A stretch of 37,681 nucleotides of DNA from Chloroflexota bacterium. Lineage in GTDB: Bacteria > Chloroflexota > Dehalococcoidia > Lucifugimonadales > Australimonadaceae. The notes beneath the pieces were generated by a model. It searched no databases. It worked only from the letters and a program-made list of their open reading frames with translations, and was not told the origin of the DNA. The stretch is from positions 1 through 37,681 of the forward strand of contig JAPPHT010000004.1 in assembly GCA_028874795.1 (NCBI GenBank), read 5' to 3'. This document shows positions 13,177 to 20,890 of the stretch, piece by piece; position 1 is the stretch's first letter; each line of letters opens with the position of its first letter. The translations under genes and the position numbers were made by a program.

Positions 13177-14278
13177 CTATTCGCCTTCCACATTGGAGAG
13201 CAGGTAGGCGCGCATGAAACCCTCCAACTCGCCGTCCAGAACGAGGTCGGGATTCGTGGACTCGAAATCGGTCCGATGGTCCTTCACCATCTTGTACGGG
13301 TGGAGCACGTAGCTCCTGATCTGGCTGCCCCACCCTGCAGCCACGTGCTCTCCCTTCAGCGCCGCGCGCTCTTCCGCACGCCTGCGCATCTCCACCTCCA
13401 TCAGCCGGGCGCGGAGGATCTTCATCGCCACTTCGCGGTTCTGAAGCTGAGAGCGCTCGTTCTGGCAGGAGACGACGATGCCGGACGGTATGTGCCGTAT
13501 GCGGACGGCCGTGGAGTTCTTCTGCACGTGCTGGCCCCCGGCCCCGCTCGCCTTGAAGACGTCCATCTCGATATCGTCCGGGTTGACCTGCACGGACACG
13601 TTGTCTTCCGCCTCCGGCAGGACTTCCACGAGGGCGAACGACGTATGGCGCGCATGCGCCGCGTCGAACGGCGACAGGCGCACGAGCCGATGGACGCCGC
13701 GCTCCGCCTTGGCGTACCCGTAGGCGTACTCCCCGGCTACCTCGAGAGTGACGCTCTTGATGCCTGCCTCTTCGCCGGTGGAGAGGTCGAGCACCTGCGC
13801 CTTGTACCCGCTCTGCGCCGCCCAGCGCGTGTACATGCGCAGCAGCATCTCCGTCCAGTCCTGGGCGTCGGTACCCCCCTCCCGAGCGTGGATCGCGAGT
13901 ATCGCACTGCGCTCGTCGTACTCGCCGGAAAGCACCAGCAGCAACTCGCGCTCCTCGGCCTCGGCGAAGATGGCCTCGCTCTCCTGCGCAAGCTCGTCCC
14001 CCATCGACGCATCATCCGCCTCGATGGCCATCTCCAGCAGTTCGATGGTGGAACGTATTCGGGACTCGAAACCGCGCCAGCCGTCGATGGAGGAACGCAG
14101 GCGCGAGAGCCGCTGCATGACGGTCTGCGCGCGCTCAGGGTCGTCCCAGAGACCCGGTTCGGCGGCTTGCTCTTCTAGGTGTTCTGCTTCCGCTTCCTGG
14201 CCGGGGAGGTCAAAGCCGCACCATGATGCCAGTGACGTGTCCGGCGAGATCGGTGAGGCGTTGTCGCAGCTCTTCCAT
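13177..14278 (-). CDS. prfB: peptide chain release factor 2 (programmed +1 frameshift)
   Basis: RF2 ends translation at UGA and UAA. The gene starts at the ATG at 14278 (MEELRQRLTDLAGHVTG...) and stops in frame after 22 codons at CTT-TGA-C (14215-14209). A +1 shift resumes at GAC (14211) and continues with DLPGQEAEAEHL to the stop at 13177. The joined product is 366 residues, against 365 in E. coli. The specificity tripeptide SPF is at 202-204 and the catalytic GGQ at 247-249, both offset by 3 from E. coli. Low RF2 lets the ribosome stall at UGA and shift, so the gene autoregulates. GGGAGGGAAG upstream of the ATG is the ribosome binding site. Confidence 0.96.
14209..14215 (-). promoter_or_regulatory. 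RF2 programmed frameshift site CTTTGAC
   Basis: The minus strand reads CTT TGA C at codons 22-23 of prfB, identical to the classic RF2 slippery heptamer. A weak internal Shine-Dalgarno-like GGTG sits three bases upstream of CTT, where E. coli has AGGGGG. The zero frame ends at this TGA, while the +1 frame is open through to the RF2 stop. Confidence 0.93.
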
Positions 14279-14409
14279 CGGGTATCTTCCCTCCCGCAGA
14301 CCAGTGGACTTACCCGCCATTCTACCATCCGCCGTACCGTCCGCCCTCCGGTGCGCCGACTGCCTCGATGGACGATGCGCGTCCCGGTGTGCTACGCTCG
14401 CTCCACGGT

Positions 14410-15054: not shown

Positions 15055-15369
15055 TCAGGCCGCAGCAGCAAGGGGCGTTTGTATCCGGCGCAGCGCGCGG
15101 TGCACCGTGCGCACGCTGATGCCGAACCGGGTCGCCACCTCGTAGACGTGCAGGTTCTCATACTGGTAGGTCCAGGCGATCTCTTCGTCGCGTTCCCGCA
15201 GCTTGTAGGCCTGGTACCAGGCAGGGTCGTCGAACTTGCAGCGGGGCAGGGGGCACTCCAGGCACGACATCGACGCCTCGCAGCCTGTGTCGGCGTAGTG
15301 CATCTGCTCAGGTAGTCCGTCCACGGTCGGCTCGTCCCGCCTTCGCCTTGTCTTCGTGTACATGCTCAT
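15055..15369 (-). CDS. small Cys-cluster helix-turn-helix protein, second gene of the LexA-box operon
   Basis: A 104-residue protein of unrecognised family. An Arg-rich start (KTRRRR) is followed by four cysteines, Cys30, Cys36, Cys39 and Cys44, in GCEASMSCLECPLPRC. This C-x5-C-x2-C-x4-C pattern could bind zinc or an iron-sulfur cluster. Residues about 66-96 form a helix-turn-helix (VYEVATRFGISVRTVHRALRR). The likely role is a small DNA-binding, possibly redox- or metal-sensing regulator. The ATG at 15369 is preceded by AAGGAGGAAGAG. An alternative GTG at 15450 overlaps the upstream stop as GTGA but lacks a ribosome binding site. It is cotranscribed with the terminase-like gene. Confidence 0.8.
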   Translation of the reverse strand: MSMYTKTRRRRDEPTVDGLPEQMHYADTGCEASMSCLECPLPRCKFDDPAWYQAYKLRERDEEIAWTYQYENLHVYEVATRFGISVRTVHRALRRIQTPLAAAA

Positions 15370-15446: not shown

Positions 15447-16751
15447 TCACGACGCGATCGCGATGGGGAATACCAACTGCTGTTCTTCTCCCTGCTCCGC
15501 GCCTTCACTGATCAGCATGGACAGGCCTTCCAGGAATCCCTCGTCCTGTCCCTCTACAACCACCGTGAACCCACGCCCCTCCCCGAGGCGCAGCACCGCC
15601 CATTCCATCTCCCGGCGCAATGCCCTGTACTCGGGAGAACCGTCCATGTCGTACAGAGAGAGCTTCCCCGTCAGCAACGCTGCGAGAATGGAGGTCGATT
15701 CCCGTTCGCGCTGCCGTCCCGTATCGGGGACCCACCGCACGCCGCCGGGGCGCAGACTGTGCTGCAGCAGCAGTCGCATCTGTCCCTCGTCCTGACAGCG
15801 CATCCGCACCAGCAGGCTCTCACAGGGCCAGGTCCTCTCCAGGAAACGCTCGATCGCCGCTACGAGTGGCGGCACGTCCGGCGCCTTGATCCACTTGTGA
15901 TCGAGCACGCGAAGCCCGCCTCCCGTACAAGACGCCACAGTCACGACGGCCGTCGCCGGCGTACCCCCCTCCGCAAGCCGCGTGACGACGACGGAGGCGA
16001 TGAGCCGACCGGCCACGGCAAGCCGCCGCGGACCGCCCCCTCCGAAGAGTCCGCGCAACCGCCCCCGCGAGAACGCCGCAGCGCCCTGAGAAACCGGGCG
16101 CAGCTCGTAGGACGTCTCGAACTCCGGGTGCGCGACTCCAAGCCTCTCCCGTTCGACTTCAACCCTTCCTGCGTAGCCGGGCAGCTCCGCTTCTGCCCGG
16201 GCCAGCGGAACCCGGAGATGCCTGCGGACTCCTTCCGTGCGGACGGCGTCCTTGTTGGCCAGCTTGATGCGTTCGAACGGCGTCGCTCCGTTCCACGGGC
16301 GTCCGTAGAGCACGACCGTCGCGCCGGATGCACCCGCGATCTCCTGCAAACGCGCTATCTCAGCCGGCCGGAGGAGCTGGGCGTCAACCGCCTGTATCAG
16401 TTCGAACGGTCCGGCGGTGCGCGGGAGGTCCTCCGGCGCCGCATAGTGCGCGTGGGCGCGACCCAGGCGCACACATCCGCGTTCATCCGACCAGAGACCC
16501 CTCAGCGCGCTCTCGCGCAGGTTGCTGATGAGCCGCCCCTTCACATCCGGATGTCCTCCCGGAACGACGCGCAGCAGCGCTCCGCCCGCGTTCACACCGA
16601 CGCCCATCACCAGCATCTCCAACTGCGATGCCAGCTCGCTCACACCTGAGCCGAGCGGCATCTCTACCGTGAAAGTCGATCCCCGCTGCCCGAACACGTC
16701 TCCAGCGACCGCTGTCGCTATCTCACGCTGATATGTCGTTGGCGTCTTCAT
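15447..16751 (-). CDS. degenerate terminase large subunit-like protein under LexA-type control
   Basis: A 434-residue protein whose segment order resembles a phage terminase large subunit. An ATPase-like part includes VEMPLGSGVSELASQLEML (28-46) at the Walker A position and FELIQAVDAQLL (116-127) at Walker B. VVLYGRPWNGATPFERIKL lies at the coupling motif, then HPEFETSYELRP, then an RNase H-like C-terminal half from about 250. Key residues look lost: no P-loop Lys (GSGVS), no DE pair at Walker B, and no Asp in the first nuclease strand (SVVVTRLAEGG). It may be a domesticated, non-catalytic protein. ATG at 16751 follows AGGAGA. The promoter carries LexA-type boxes. The assignment is by eye and tentative. 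Confidence 0.6.
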   Translation of the reverse strand: MKTPTTYQREIATAVAGDVFGQRGSTFTVEMPLGSGVSELASQLEMLVMGVGVNAGGALLRVVPGGHPDVKGRLISNLRESALRGLWSDERGCVRLGRAHAHYAAPEDLPRTAGPFELIQAVDAQLLRPAEIARLQEIAGASGATVVLYGRPWNGATPFERIKLANKDAVRTEGVRRHLRVPLARAEAELPGYAGRVEVERERLGVAHPEFETSYELRPVSQGAAAFSRGRLRGLFGGGGPRRLAVAGRLIASVVVTRLAEGGTPATAVVTVASCTGGGLRVLDHKWIKAPDVPPLVAAIERFLERTWPCESLLVRMRCQDEGQMRLLLQHSLRPGGVRWVPDTGRQRERESTSILAALLTGKLSLYDMDGSPEYRALRREMEWAVLRLGEGRGFTVVVEGQDEGFLEGLSMLISEGAEQGEEQQLVFPIAIAS

Positions 16752-16766
16752 CTCGGTTCTCCTGCA

Positions 16767-16778
16767 GAACGTATGTGC
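16767..16778. promoter_or_regulatory. imperfect LexA-type box in the 5' leader
   Basis: GAACGTATGTGC differs at one base from the GAAC-N4-GTTC palindrome. It lies in the transcript leader, starting exactly 33 bp from the box in the promoter spacer. On its own it would be weak evidence; the equal spacing to two perfect boxes supports it. Confidence 0.55.
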
Positions 16779-16793
16779 TACTACGCTGGGCGC

Positions 16794-16822
16794 ATATTAG
16801 AACGCTTGTTCTACGCTGTCAA
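16794..16822 (-). promoter_or_regulatory. strong sigma70 promoter of the LexA-box operon
   Basis: The minus strand reads TTGACA (16822-16817, perfect -35), a 17-base spacer, then TAATAT (16799-16794, 5 of 6 matches to the -10 consensus). Transcription should start near 16787, about 36 bases before the ATG at 16751. It is the best promoter match in the window. The spacer is occupied by a GAAC-N4-GTTC box, so a bound repressor would block RNA polymerase directly. Confidence 0.88.
16800..16811. promoter_or_regulatory. perfect LexA-type (DinR) box between -35 and -10
   Basis: GAACGCTTGTTC matches the GAAC-N4-GTTC core known for LexA/DinR in Bacillus and other Gram-positive bacteria. It is flanked by TA on each side (TA-box-TA). 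It fits entirely inside the 17-base promoter spacer. Confidence 0.85.
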
Positions 16823-16832
16823 CACCCTTTTA

Positions 16833-16844
16833 GAACGAATGTTC
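16833..16844. promoter_or_regulatory. perfect LexA-type box upstream of -35
   Basis: GAACGAATGTTC is a second exact GAAC-N4-GTTC site, starting 33 bp from the spacer box and 11 bp upstream of the -35 hexamer. Spacing near three helical turns puts the boxes on nearly the same DNA face, suitable for cooperative binding. Confidence 0.8.
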
Positions 16845-16988
16845 CCCGGATTTCCCGGCTCGTGCGGTTGCCGTCCAGCCTTGCGAGGCGTACGTTGCCG
16901 GCGCGCGTCCCCAGACAGGGAAACAAGCCCCGCGAAGACGTGGTTCGGGGCGCCGGACAAGCGCATACAAGGGGCCAAGGAGAGCATC

Positions 16989-18065
16989 ATGGGCTGGACG
17001 ATCCATCACCCCAACGGCCTGCTGTACCACGATCCCGCGAAGGCCTTTCCGGGCTACACCCTCATTTCCATGTCAAGCGGCAGGGATGCCTACCTCATCG
17101 ACATGGAGGGTCGCGTCTGCCATCGCTGGCATCGGGACGAGGGCATCTCCTACGGTTTCCTGCTGGACAACGGCAATCTCCTCTCGAGGACGCACTCGAG
17201 CGGTGGGTTCCTGCCCCCGCCCGGCACTCCCACCGGCATCCTCGAACTGGACTGGGACAGCAACCTCGTGTGGAGCTACTCGGACCCGCTCGTGCACCAC
17301 GACTTCGAGCGGCTGCCGGACGGGCACACGCTCATGGTGCTCTACGACCTGATGCCGCAGGACATCGCTCGCCGGGTGCGCGGGGGACGGGGGAGCGTCG
17401 AGGAGCCGATGTACGGCGACCTGGTGCGCGAGGTCGACGCCGCCGGAGCGACCGTGCGGGAGTGGAGCATGTGGGCGCCGCTCGACCCGGAACAGGACGC
17501 CATCTGCCCGCTGGAAGAGCGCCACCAGTGGTTGCACCAGAACGCGCTGAACCTCACGGCCGACGGCGACCTGCTGGTGAGCTTTCGCCAGATAGACACC
17601 GTGGGCATAGTGAGCCGCGAGACCGGTCAGTACACGTGGAAGTGGGGGCCGGGGGAGGTATCCCACCAGCACCACCCGACGCAGCTGCCCAACGGACACA
17701 TCCTGCTGTTCGACAACGGGCCGCATCGCGGCGGGGCGACCTACTCCCGCGTCATCGAGGTCGACCCGGAGAGCGGGCGTATCGCGTGGGAGTACAAGGG
17801 CGCTCCGCCCATCTCGTTCTACAGCTACCACATCAGCGGAGCGGAGCGACAGCCGAACGGCAACACACTGATCTGCGAGGGAGCGCCGGGGCGGCTCTTC
17901 GAGGTCACACCGGACGGCGAGGTCGTCTGGGAGTACGTGAACCCGCACGTCATACCGGAGGGCGCGCCCATGGGCTCCGGCGGCCCGAGCTCCGTCTTCC
18001 GGGGGCACCGCTACGCGCCGGACCACCCGGCGCTCGCCGGCAGGGACCTTACCCCGCTCGATTAG
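16989..18065 (+). CDS. arylsulfotransferase (ASST)-like beta-propeller protein
   Basis: A 358-residue protein with repeated propeller-type units: IDMEGRVCHRW, LDNGNLLSR, LELDWDSNLVWSY, LPDGHTLMVLYD, TADGDLLVSFR and LPNGHILLFDNG. This pattern is typical of the arylsulfotransferase/ASST families. His-rich stretches (VHHDF, HQN, SHQHHPTQ) occupy the positions where ASST active-site histidines are found, which hints at catalysis but is not proven. There is no signal peptide, so it is predicted cytoplasmic, unlike classical ASST. AAGGAGAGCATC precedes the ATG at 16989; a longer frame from 16773 would cross the LexA-box region and is rejected. It ends convergently, sharing three bases with the DUF1501 gene. 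Confidence 0.8.
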   Translation: MGWTIHHPNGLLYHDPAKAFPGYTLISMSSGRDAYLIDMEGRVCHRWHRDEGISYGFLLDNGNLLSRTHSSGGFLPPPGTPTGILELDWDSNLVWSYSDPLVHHDFERLPDGHTLMVLYDLMPQDIARRVRGGRGSVEEPMYGDLVREVDAAGATVREWSMWAPLDPEQDAICPLEERHQWLHQNALNLTADGDLLVSFRQIDTVGIVSRETGQYTWKWGPGEVSHQHHPTQLPNGHILLFDNGPHRGGATYSRVIEVDPESGRIAWEYKGAPPISFYSYHISGAERQPNGNTLICEGAPGRLFEVTPDGEVVWEYVNPHVIPEGAPMGSGGPSSVFRGHRYAPDHPALAGRDLTPLD

Positions 18066-19324
18066 TTCGCAGCAGCGCCAGGCACGAAGAGCGGCAGGCG
18101 CTCGAAGCGGCCTCCGAGCACGGCCTCCGACGGCGCGCCGAGCCAGCCCTCCAGCACCGAGGCGTACACCTGCCTGAAGTCCGTCGTGAACCGGAGATTG
18201 TCCTTCTCGAGCGAGGCGAGGCTGGGGCGTTCGCCGTAGAGTCCGCCCGCCACCGGGGCGCCCACGACGAACATCGGCCCGGCGGAGCCGTGGTCGGTGC
18301 CGTCGCTTGCGTTCCCGGTCACCCGCCGCCCGAACTCGGACCAGGTCATCATCACCACGTCATTTGCATGTCCGTGCGCCTGCAGGTCCCGGTAGAAGGC
18401 GAGCATGGCGTCCGCCGTCTCCGCCAGCAGTGCTTCGTGCCGACCCTTCTGTGCAGCGTGTGTATCGAACCCGCCTATCTTCACGTGCCCTACCCGCAGC
18501 CCCAGGTCCGCGTCGATCGCCTCGGCCATGAGCCGAAGCCCTTGCGCGAGCCCGGATTCACCGTACTCGACGGCAGGCTCGTACCGGGCGTGCGCCTGTT
18601 GCACGGCGTCCGAGCTGCGCTGCGCCGCTTGCAGGGTGTTGTCCAGCAGCGCGCCGAAGCGCGTGGCGCCGGGCGACGAGGCGTAGAGCCGGAGGAGTGC
18701 CTCTGTCCGCGCCTGCCGGTTCGAGGCGTTGCGCGGGTCGTCCTGCAATTGGTAGGCGTCCACGCTCTCCACGAGCGGCACCGTGACGTTGGCCGTGACC
18801 ATCGCCCGCGGCATCCGCTTGTCGGCCACCAGCGCGAGGAAGACGTCCTCCTGCTCCGCAGCGATGCCCTCCAGGTACCGCCCGAGCCATCCCTCGTACC
18901 CTCTCCTGCCCGTCTGTGCCGTCTGCCAGATGTCCATCGACTCGAAGTGCGAGAAGCTCGGGGCCGGGTAGCCGACGCCCTCCACCACCGCAAGGGCGCC
19001 TTCATCCCACAGCTCCTTCAGCGCCGGGAGGCTGGGATGGAAGCCTGCCTGCCCGTCGATGGCGAGCACGTCGTCCTGAGGGATGGCGAGGTCGCCGCGC
19101 AGCTCGTAGTACCTCCGGTCATTCGCGGGGACGACCGTGTTCAGGCCGTCGTTCCCGCCGGCCATCTGCACGATCACGAGCGTGCGGTTTCCCAGGGGGG
19201 CGGCGACGGACGGCTGCTCGTGGATGGCGGCGGCGACGGCCCGGCTGAAGACAGCGGGCATGGCCGCCGCCGCGGGGACGGCCACCATGCTGGTCTTGAG
19301 GAACTGACGCCTGCTGATCAACAT
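18062..19324 (-). CDS. DUF1501 family protein, Tat-exported
   Basis: A 420-residue protein with a twin-arginine signal: SRRQFLKTSMVAVPAAAAMPAVFSRAVAAA contains the SRRxFLK motif and an Ala-rich core. The mature part matches the DUF1501 pattern (LVIVQMAGGNDGLNTVVP, VIDGQAGFHPSLPALKELW-like and SEFGRRVTGN, DGTDHGSAGPMFVVG). The fold is alkaline-phosphatase-like in this family, though the function is not established. It is exported folded, possibly with a cofactor. It follows the DUF1800 gene by nine bases, the common pairing of these families. Its TAA and the arylsulfotransferase-like gene's TAG share bases 18063-18064. Confidence 0.92.
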   Translation of the reverse strand: MLISRRQFLKTSMVAVPAAAAMPAVFSRAVAAAIHEQPSVAAPLGNRTLVIVQMAGGNDGLNTVVPANDRRYYELRGDLAIPQDDVLAIDGQAGFHPSLPALKELWDEGALAVVEGVGYPAPSFSHFESMDIWQTAQTGRRGYEGWLGRYLEGIAAEQEDVFLALVADKRMPRAMVTANVTVPLVESVDAYQLQDDPRNASNRQARTEALLRLYASSPGATRFGALLDNTLQAAQRSSDAVQQAHARYEPAVEYGESGLAQGLRLMAEAIDADLGLRVGHVKIGGFDTHAAQKGRHEALLAETADAMLAFYRDLQAHGHANDVVMMTWSEFGRRVTGNASDGTDHGSAGPMFVVGAPVAGGLYGERPSLASLEKDNLRFTTDFRQVYASVLEGWLGAPSEAVLGGRFERLPLFVPGAAAN

Positions 19325-19333
19325 CGCTCCGCC

Positions 19334-20890
19334 TCACACCACCTGGAAGTCCGGCGACGCCAGCATGAGATAGACGGCATTCCTGATCTTCCGGTCGAGG
19401 GACACCCTGCCCAGTTCGTCCAGGAACGCGGTCAGCACGTCTCGACCGGCGCGGCTGAGACGCCCGCCAAGAAGGAGGTCGTCGAGGAAGTCGACGATAC
19501 CGCCGGACGTTCTCACGTCCTGCCCGCTGACGAGGTCCTTTGGAGTGAACCGCAGCCGCCTGCCGCGCGCCTCCGCGATCTTGTTGGCGGCGTTGACGCG
19601 CTCCAGCAGCGCCGAGCTGTTGATCCAGGTCGCGCCTCCCGGCCACCCTGCGACGTTCGGCGGCATGAAGAGCTCCTGTCCCATCCGTTCGATGGGCTTG
19701 TAGAGCGGCCTGAAGTCGGTCTCCACGCCGAGCGCGCGCACCGCGCCGACGGCCAGCTCGACCGGAGACTTGACGATCGCGGCCCTGGCCCGGTTGCCGT
19801 AGAACTCGTCGGACTCGAACATCGCCCGAACGACGGGGCGTATCTCGGTGCCGCTCGACCTGAAGACGTCCGCGAGACGCTGGATCACCTCGGGCTCGGG
19901 GTCGGGGTAGGCGAAGAACGTCCAGAGCCGGGTACAGATGTACTCGGCGGCTGCGGGCTGCTCCATGATGATGTCCACGATGTCGTCGCCGTCGAACCTG
20001 CCCGTACGCCCCAGGAACGTCTTGCGCCCGTTGTCGTGCTGTCTTGCGTTGATGTAGAAGCCTCTCTTGCGGCTGAGCTGCCAGCCGGTGAAGGCCCGCG
20101 CGGACTCGCGGACGTCCTCTTCGGTGTAGTGGCCGATGCCAAGGGAGAAGAGCTCCATGAGCTCGCGGGAGTAGTTCTCGTTCGGGGCGGCCTTCTTGTT
20201 GGAGCGGCTGTCCAGGTAGGTCATCATCGCCGGGTCGCGGGAAACCGCCTTCAGCAGGTCGTCGTACCGCCCCATCCCCTGCTCGCGGAGGAGGCGGTTC
20301 TGCTGGACCGTGTACGGCCCCTTGCCGACGATCCTGAACGAGCTGGTCAGGATGCCGTGCCAGAAGAGCGTCATCTTCTCCTGCAGCGGGCGGGCAGTGT
20401 AGGCCATGCGCTGCAGCCACCACCGCTGGAGCTGGTTGAGGCTCTGTTCCAGGTCCAGCTCCTGCGCCGCGAGCCGCTCCTCCAGCGCACTGTCGTCGAC
20501 AGCCTCGAAGTCGACCAGGTGATCGATCGTGGCCTGGAGGCCCATCGCGCGGAAACGCGCAAGCTCGGCGGGCGACGCGCCGAACCCCGCACGCCACAGC
20601 ACGTGGCTTACGCGGGACTCCTCATCGAGCGGAGCGTCGTCCTGCGACAGGAGGCCCGAGAGTCGTGAGGACGGCCCCTGTCCGGCGCCGTCGAAGGGAG
20701 TGGGCCCAAGGGACCGCTCTTTGCCTGCCGGCGGGGCTTTCGGTTGCGCGGCGGCGATGAAGACGGGCGCAGTAGCGGCGGTCAGGCCGAGCAGCGCGGC
20801 GCGCGCCATGAAGCCGCGCCTGTCCATGCCAAGAGCGAGGACGGGGTCGTCCAGTCGCGGACGTTGGTCGGTCAACGGTTCATCGTCCAT
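19334..20890 (-). CDS. DUF1800 family protein, Tat-exported
   Basis: A 518-residue protein. The N-terminal DRRGFMARAALLGLTAATAPVFIAAA is a twin-arginine signal that begins about 22 residues in. DUF1800 features include HVLWRAGFGASPAELARFRAMG, MTLFWHGILTS, NENYSRELMELFSLGIGHYTEEDVRE and PPNVAGWPGGATWINSSALL. The family has no settled function; it is nearly always found with DUF1501, as here. Together they may form an extracytoplasmic pair. The CAT at 20888-20890 gives the start, and the preceding 460 bases contain a helically phased repeat array that could regulate the pair. Confidence 0.92.
   Translation of the reverse strand: MDDEPLTDQRPRLDDPVLALGMDRRGFMARAALLGLTAATAPVFIAAAQPKAPPAGKERSLGPTPFDGAGQGPSSRLSGLLSQDDAPLDEESRVSHVLWRAGFGASPAELARFRAMGLQATIDHLVDFEAVDDSALEERLAAQELDLEQSLNQLQRWWLQRMAYTARPLQEKMTLFWHGILTSSFRIVGKGPYTVQQNRLLREQGMGRYDDLLKAVSRDPAMMTYLDSRSNKKAAPNENYSRELMELFSLGIGHYTEEDVRESARAFTGWQLSRKRGFYINARQHDNGRKTFLGRTGRFDGDDIVDIIMEQPAAAEYICTRLWTFFAYPDPEPEVIQRLADVFRSSGTEIRPVVRAMFESDEFYGNRARAAIVKSPVELAVGAVRALGVETDFRPLYKPIERMGQELFMPPNVAGWPGGATWINSSALLERVNAANKIAEARGRRLRFTPKDLVSGQDVRTSGGIVDFLDDLLLGGRLSRAGRDVLTAFLDELGRVSLDRKIRNAVYLMLASPDFQVV

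Follow-up and report, generated by a model that had tools for sequence, protein, structure and literature searches.

Which genes does a promoter overlaid by three LexA-type boxes serve in an uncultured marine Chloroflexota bacterium of the SAR202 group, and would LexA be the repressor that acts there? Both questions arise at positions 16767 to 16844 of the window, the whole stretch of 37,681 nucleotides that was analysed, which belongs to a genome of 3.33 Mb in 90 contigs (G000).

A promoter with three LexA-type boxes

A preliminary description of the window had placed the three boxes at exact 33-bp spacing around a near-perfect promoter. This geometry is confirmed, as both start-to-start distances are 33 bp and the sigma-70-type promoter, TTGACA (16817..16822)-17 bp-TAATAT (16794..16799), is found on the minus strand, with no other promoter-like site in 16600-17100. 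The -35 hexamer is conserved in the family. Box 1 (GAACGAATGTTC, 16833..16844; the boxes are given without strand) precedes the -35 hexamer by 10 bp and has an aligned counterpart in most family members. Box 2 (GAACGCTTGTTC, 16800..16811), whose extended minus-strand form is TAGAACAAGCGTTCTA, lies within the promoter spacer. It had been said to fill the spacer, which is inexact, since it occupies 12 of the 17 spacer bases and abuts the -10 hexamer. Box 3 (GAACGTATGTGC, one mismatch, 16767..16778) falls immediately past the inferred transcription start, spanning about +10 to +21, ahead of the ribosome-binding site AGGAG (16759..16763, minus strand, read from the sequence) and the ATG (16751). 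On the transcribed strand, box 3 reads GCACATACGTTC and matches GAACNNNNGTGC, a form common among the operators of the class, and its counterpart is seen in several family members.

The boxes at 16800 and 16833 are the only two perfect boxes in the window, and the earlier judgement that chance is very unlikely to have brought them so close together holds, given that none of 300 windows simulated with a first-order Markov model contained a perfect pair within 70 bp (about 0.0003 expected). Single matches with one mismatch are not unusual (21 observed in the window vs 12.8 expected). The core promoter with its middle box (TTGACA..AGAACN4-TTCTA-TAT) is conserved in 14 family promoters, all of which (14/14) retain AGAAC-N4-(G/A)TNCTA at the box 2 position, and the outer boxes recur in family promoters at 24-33 bp. 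The exact 33-bp spacing is a local feature that is not conserved among relatives, where the boxes are 24-33 bp, mostly 30-33 bp, apart and the spacing of three helical turns is only roughly retained. Cooperative repression by the boxes, which the equal spacing had suggested, is plausible. On the other side of the promoter, a divergent arylsulfotransferase-like gene (16990..18065, plus strand, inferred start 16990) begins ~145 bp from box 1. Beside it lies a DUF1501/DUF1800 gene pair (18062-20890), which also occurs near the corresponding locus in another genome (G005).

The identity of the repressor can be approached through lexA. G000 has a single lexA (C36:1025-1675), and GAACGTCCGTTC is present at C36:989-1000, 25-36 bp ahead of its start codon. 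The encoded protein has both domains of LexA, LexA_DNA_bind (4e-15) and Peptidase_S24 (1.5e-24), the latter being the domain of autocleavage. In the lexA promoters of 30 relatives, GAAC tops all 256 palindromic half-sites, with matches of at most one mismatch in 26/30 promoters and 8/30 for the runner-up. The proposal that the host LexA uses the Gram-positive type site is thus supported by the palindrome at lexA of G000 and of 26/30 relatives, and the outcome that would have refuted it, a different LexA motif with no box at lexA or recA, did not arise, as lexA carries the box. The suggested check of whether lexA, recA, and other repair genes bear the box gives a mixed outcome: the box accompanies lexA and a Y-family polymerase gene but is missing at recA. 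The recA promoter (L006, G000:C4) contains no box, the perfect palindrome at C4:36446 falling within coding sequence, so RecA amplification would not be LexA-controlled in G000. The Y-family (IMS) polymerase gene (L060, G000:C61:67994) has the promoter TTGACA-GAACATTCGTTC-TAATAT, a layout near-identical to that in the window, and is probably LexA-regulated and ImuB-like.

As with the Gram-positive LexA operators (Cheo box, GAAC-N4-GTTC), the same palindrome lies over a promoter and occurs at lexA and the Y-family polymerase gene, whereas the window differs in having three operators ~30-33 bp apart and a terminase-derived operon, in a genome with a boxless recA. The LexA of Dehalococcoides ethenogenes was reportedly described in 2002 as binding a Gram-positive type sequence. 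If this is correct, the motif itself is already known for this class; the identity of the target gene, which is terminase-derived, is the main novelty. Beyond individual promoters, counting GAACN4GTTC over the whole genome delineates the regulon poorly, as most sites are due to chance: perfect palindromes number 63 vs 34 in a reversed control, and a tighter form of the palindrome 16 vs 12. The regulon of G000 was sampled through pattern searches only. LexA binding and induction by DNA damage are inferred, there being no binding or expression data.

A terminase descendant and a probable cysteine-rich regulator

The promoter is inferred to serve an operon of two genes on the minus strand. The first gene (15447..16751) encodes a 434-aa pseudo-terminase, P0001, with the predicted fold of phage TerL and without its catalytic residues. 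P0001 itself has no match in Pfam, PHROGs, or NCBIfam, and a sequence profile search of the PDB likewise gave no match, thus its identity as a terminase rests on its relatives and fold only. The AlphaFold model (pLDDT 89) has the ATPase and RNase H-like nuclease fold of the terminase large subunit, and a Foldseek search with it recovers Sf6 gp2 (E 9.5e-15) and the D6E terminase (TM 0.65). P0001 thereby shares the whole two-domain fold with phage large terminases (D6E, Sf6 gp2, HK97), but differs from them in that the lysine of Walker A, the two acids of Walker B, and the acidic residues of the nuclease are missing, the changes being K37V, D122V, E123D, D255V, D316R, and HDD -> DEG. The catalytic residues are likewise missing in the full-length TerL members of the family, and in one genus (g4) the TerL-like protein is reduced to approximately its first 200 residues. 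Almost all relatives of P0001 found by sequence search belong to Dehalococcoidia (Chloroflexota), with the nearest in SAR202-cluster genomes. Those beyond the window's family have intact motifs (RQGGKNE, DEAQ, D, DATG, and GHDDF) and match Terminase_6C and PHROG terminase profiles. Within the genus, dN/dS of the TerL-like gene is about 0.16-0.36, so the gene is under purifying selection and is not a drifting pseudogene.

The second gene of the inferred operon (15055..15369, minus strand) encodes a 104-aa helix-turn-helix (HTH) protein in which a C-x5-C-x2-C-x4-C motif is invariant and the HTH is C-terminal. Its dN/dS of 0.05-0.12 points to purifying selection that is tighter than on the TerL-like gene, and the HTH protein, as the more strongly constrained product, is probably the main effector, an SOS-induced regulator. 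Homologs commonly come after TerL in other families too, and one of these has a weak match to phage late-activator profiles. Compared with the PDB, the model of the HTH protein matches nothing significantly apart from generic HTH and sigma-4 folds.

Outside the operon, the conserved neighbor prfB (peptide chain release factor 2; 13177..14328, minus strand) marks a fixed chromosomal site in the family, adjoining the TerL-like gene at 10/11 family loci vs 0/11 loci outside the family. TerL and LexA distances are also correlated (r 0.70 overall, 0.89 within the family). Together, the correlation and the prfB neighbor indicate that the TerL-like gene is vertically inherited. One family genome (G001) has neither perfect boxes nor the prfB neighbor, and in two others (G010 and G014) the search gave no TerL match. 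Portal and capsid genes of the families present in relatives are absent from 16/16 genomes of the window's family. As the genomes are mostly MAGs, absences may be assembly gaps, though the absence of portal and capsid is consistent across the 16 genomes.

Terminase, portal, and capsid loci across Dehalococcoidia

In other Dehalococcoidia, TerL sits behind small genes in an operon, and a GAAC palindrome with at most one mismatch lies ahead of the first small gene at 50/59 loci. The second-best half-site, which represents this site in a shifted register, reaches 30, and the others average 4.8. This ranking is weak when drawn across the full 1.5 kb upstream (59/67 vs 51), and it is the restriction to the upstream region of the first gene that is decisive. 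The commonest operator form in the class is taGAACATATGTGCta, located in the promoter spacer. Intact TerL genes with a LexA-like box upstream include L225-L227, L233, and L235 (G221, G196, G130, G295, and G197). Among these, G130, G295, and G197 are single-chromosome genomes of 1.5-1.9 Mb, which we infer, from size and class only, to be like those of cultured organohalide respirers (Dehalogenimonas/Dehalococcoides). No capsid match was obtained in G130.

In other families, TerL is often followed by a portal gene (SPP1_portal, 2e-16), and some TerL loci go on to include genes for a scaffold-like protein and for the capsid (PHROG major head, 1e-69). Outside the window's family, portal is found in 9/9 genomes and capsid in 8/9, often at separate loci. 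For instance, TerL, portal, and capsid lie at 2.77, 2.49, and 2.40 Mb in G114 and on three separate contigs in G035. The capsid gene occurs in 91/197 genomes of the class, mostly as a single copy. Where it heads its own operon, a box is present upstream in 9/12 cases, in contrast to 0/22 where it lies behind a scaffold gene (p 4e-6); limited to the sample drawn after the hypothesis had been formed, the comparison is 5/7 vs 0/22 (p 2e-4). That a box generally precedes capsid genes across the class was considered and rejected, the usual capsid gene being boxless. For most capsid genes of the class, the lack of an own box follows from their position inside an operon.

Several other genes accompany TerL in these genomes. 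In several relatives, the gene immediately behind TerL lies on the other strand and encodes a conserved protein of 393 aa whose N-terminus is FtsZ/tubulin-like (cluster K7; L077, L105, L109, and L130). A multi-helix membrane protein of ~108 aa (K11) is often encoded first in the TerL operon (L079, L107, and L124), and a single-pass membrane protein of ~75 aa (K10) is also encoded in it. Neither K10 nor K11 has family matches, and both are holin-like candidates.

Phage structural genes that are inherited vertically, lie at dispersed loci, and occur mostly as single copies are characteristic of a gene transfer agent (GTA), thus the system of the relatives is read as a candidate LexA-controlled GTA. 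For the window, the best explanation, to which we give a probability of roughly 0.78, is a LexA-controlled, dispersed GTA-like system that is class-wide and has been reduced in the window's family to two SOS-regulated genes. A three-operator, LexA-repressed (SOS) promoter would govern a two-gene operon encoding a dead TerL descendant and a cysteine-rich HTH regulator. In undamaged cells, LexA dimers on the boxes upstream of the -35 hexamer, in the spacer, and at about +10 would block RNA polymerase, and upon DNA damage, RecA-stimulated self-cleavage of LexA would release the promoter. The operon would be what is left of a GTA-like system that derives from a phage and has been passed on vertically, and whose genes for TerL, portal, scaffold, and capsid are retained intact in other Dehalococcoidia, often dispersed and with LexA boxes at the operon heads. 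In the SAR202 family, the particle genes would have been lost, with the two remaining genes kept under selection. The operon of the window is read as a reduced descendant with a new role, probably exercised via the HTH protein. The functions of these proteins, the formation of particles, and GTA activity in the relatives are all inferences from genomes. The fuller proposal is that the class, the single-chromosome genomes of 1.5-1.9 Mb included, has an unrecognized GTA whose scattered packaging and capsid operons are linked through LexA boxes, so that particles would be produced upon DNA damage, and that SAR202 took this GTA apart and kept the SOS promoter, the dead terminase, and the cysteine-HTH regulator for a new role. 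It stands at even odds.

Known systems offer partial parallels. BhGTA/VSH-1 of Brachyspira is induced by mitomycin C, and its genome is likely dispersed over multiple loci (PMC9662315). The TerL, portal, and capsid genes of the Dehalococcoidia relatives resemble BhGTA/VSH-1 and RcGTA in being phage-derived, vertically inherited, and often at separate loci (PMC9662315), and the proposed response to DNA damage has its counterpart in the induction of BhGTA by DNA-damaging agents. They differ from BhGTA and RcGTA in belonging to another bacterial class and in having LexA boxes at operon heads, and the window's family lacks portal and capsid. The Dehalococcoidia system is probably of independent origin, though no tree has been made. 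In Caulobacter, the GTA is under RogA, a LexA-like repressor without the self-cleavage residues that acts through GTA activators (PMC9632790). A LexA-fold repressor would govern GTA production in both cases, whereas the evidence from Dehalococcoidia points to SOS LexA itself acting on structural operons. A literature search found no report of a GTA in Dehalococcoidia or Chloroflexota, which is not proof of novelty. If the proposal is true, a class of largely uncultured bacteria, including SAR202 of the deep ocean and organohalide-respiring groups of groundwater, possesses a gene-transfer particle that is induced by DNA damage and whose genes are scattered over the chromosome. This would add another GTA origin and a direct LexA-to-GTA control circuit, and offer a candidate explanation of gene exchange in groups without known vectors. 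The window would then provide a clear case of a terminase that has lost its enzymatic residues and retained its SOS promoter.

Alternative readings of the locus

An ordinary decayed prophage, in which the boxes would be the remains of a switch for phage induction and the terminase-like gene a dying pseudogene, is unlikely but survives best among the alternatives. Phage descent is clear for TerL, portal, and capsid, whose genes are carried by many IMG/VR contigs, P0001 has lost its catalytic residues, and broken capsid genes occur in G043 and several other genomes of the class, as would be expected of decaying prophages too. However, a dying gene would not be expected to keep an open frame under such constraint (dN/dS 0.16-0.36, and 0.05-0.12 for its HTH partner), nor its core promoter in 14 genomes at a site with a constant prfB neighbor and a signal of vertical descent. 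The loss of residues is uniform in the full-length members of the family, unlike random decay, and the genes of the relatives are dispersed and mostly single-copy.

It is also conceivable, though a good deal less probable, that the dead terminase serves as a decoy against phages, induced in the SOS response, which would join or compete with the packaging motor of an infecting phage. Retention of the fold without ATPase and nuclease residues, together with purifying selection, would suit such a protein, and the SOS-type promoter would give expression at prophage induction. Yet PADLOC gave no defense-family match beyond a partial one of the HTH protein to mad1, no defense neighbors were seen, and the truncated proteins of genus g4 are contrary to assembly into a motor; the relatives point to an origin in packaging rather than defense.

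Least credible is a repressor other than LexA, for instance a phage-type or XRE protein whose site resembles GAAC-N4-GTTC. The motif can be common to other repressors, and similar boxes precede XRE-pair genes in G000. Yet the sole lexA of G000 is itself preceded by this box, no palindrome ranks higher at the lexA promoters of relatives, and the promoter of the Y-family polymerase gene is laid out identically. The XRE genes form two mutually related XRE/HTH two-gene operons, L062 (G000:C76:5621) and L067 (G000:C86:66397), each with a perfect box upstream, and may be SOS-controlled regulators of another element. A further perfect box lies in or beside a DUF3226 gene adjoining an AAA_21 ATPase gene (L061, G000:C63:17708), a pair that is possibly SOS-controlled and of defense type.
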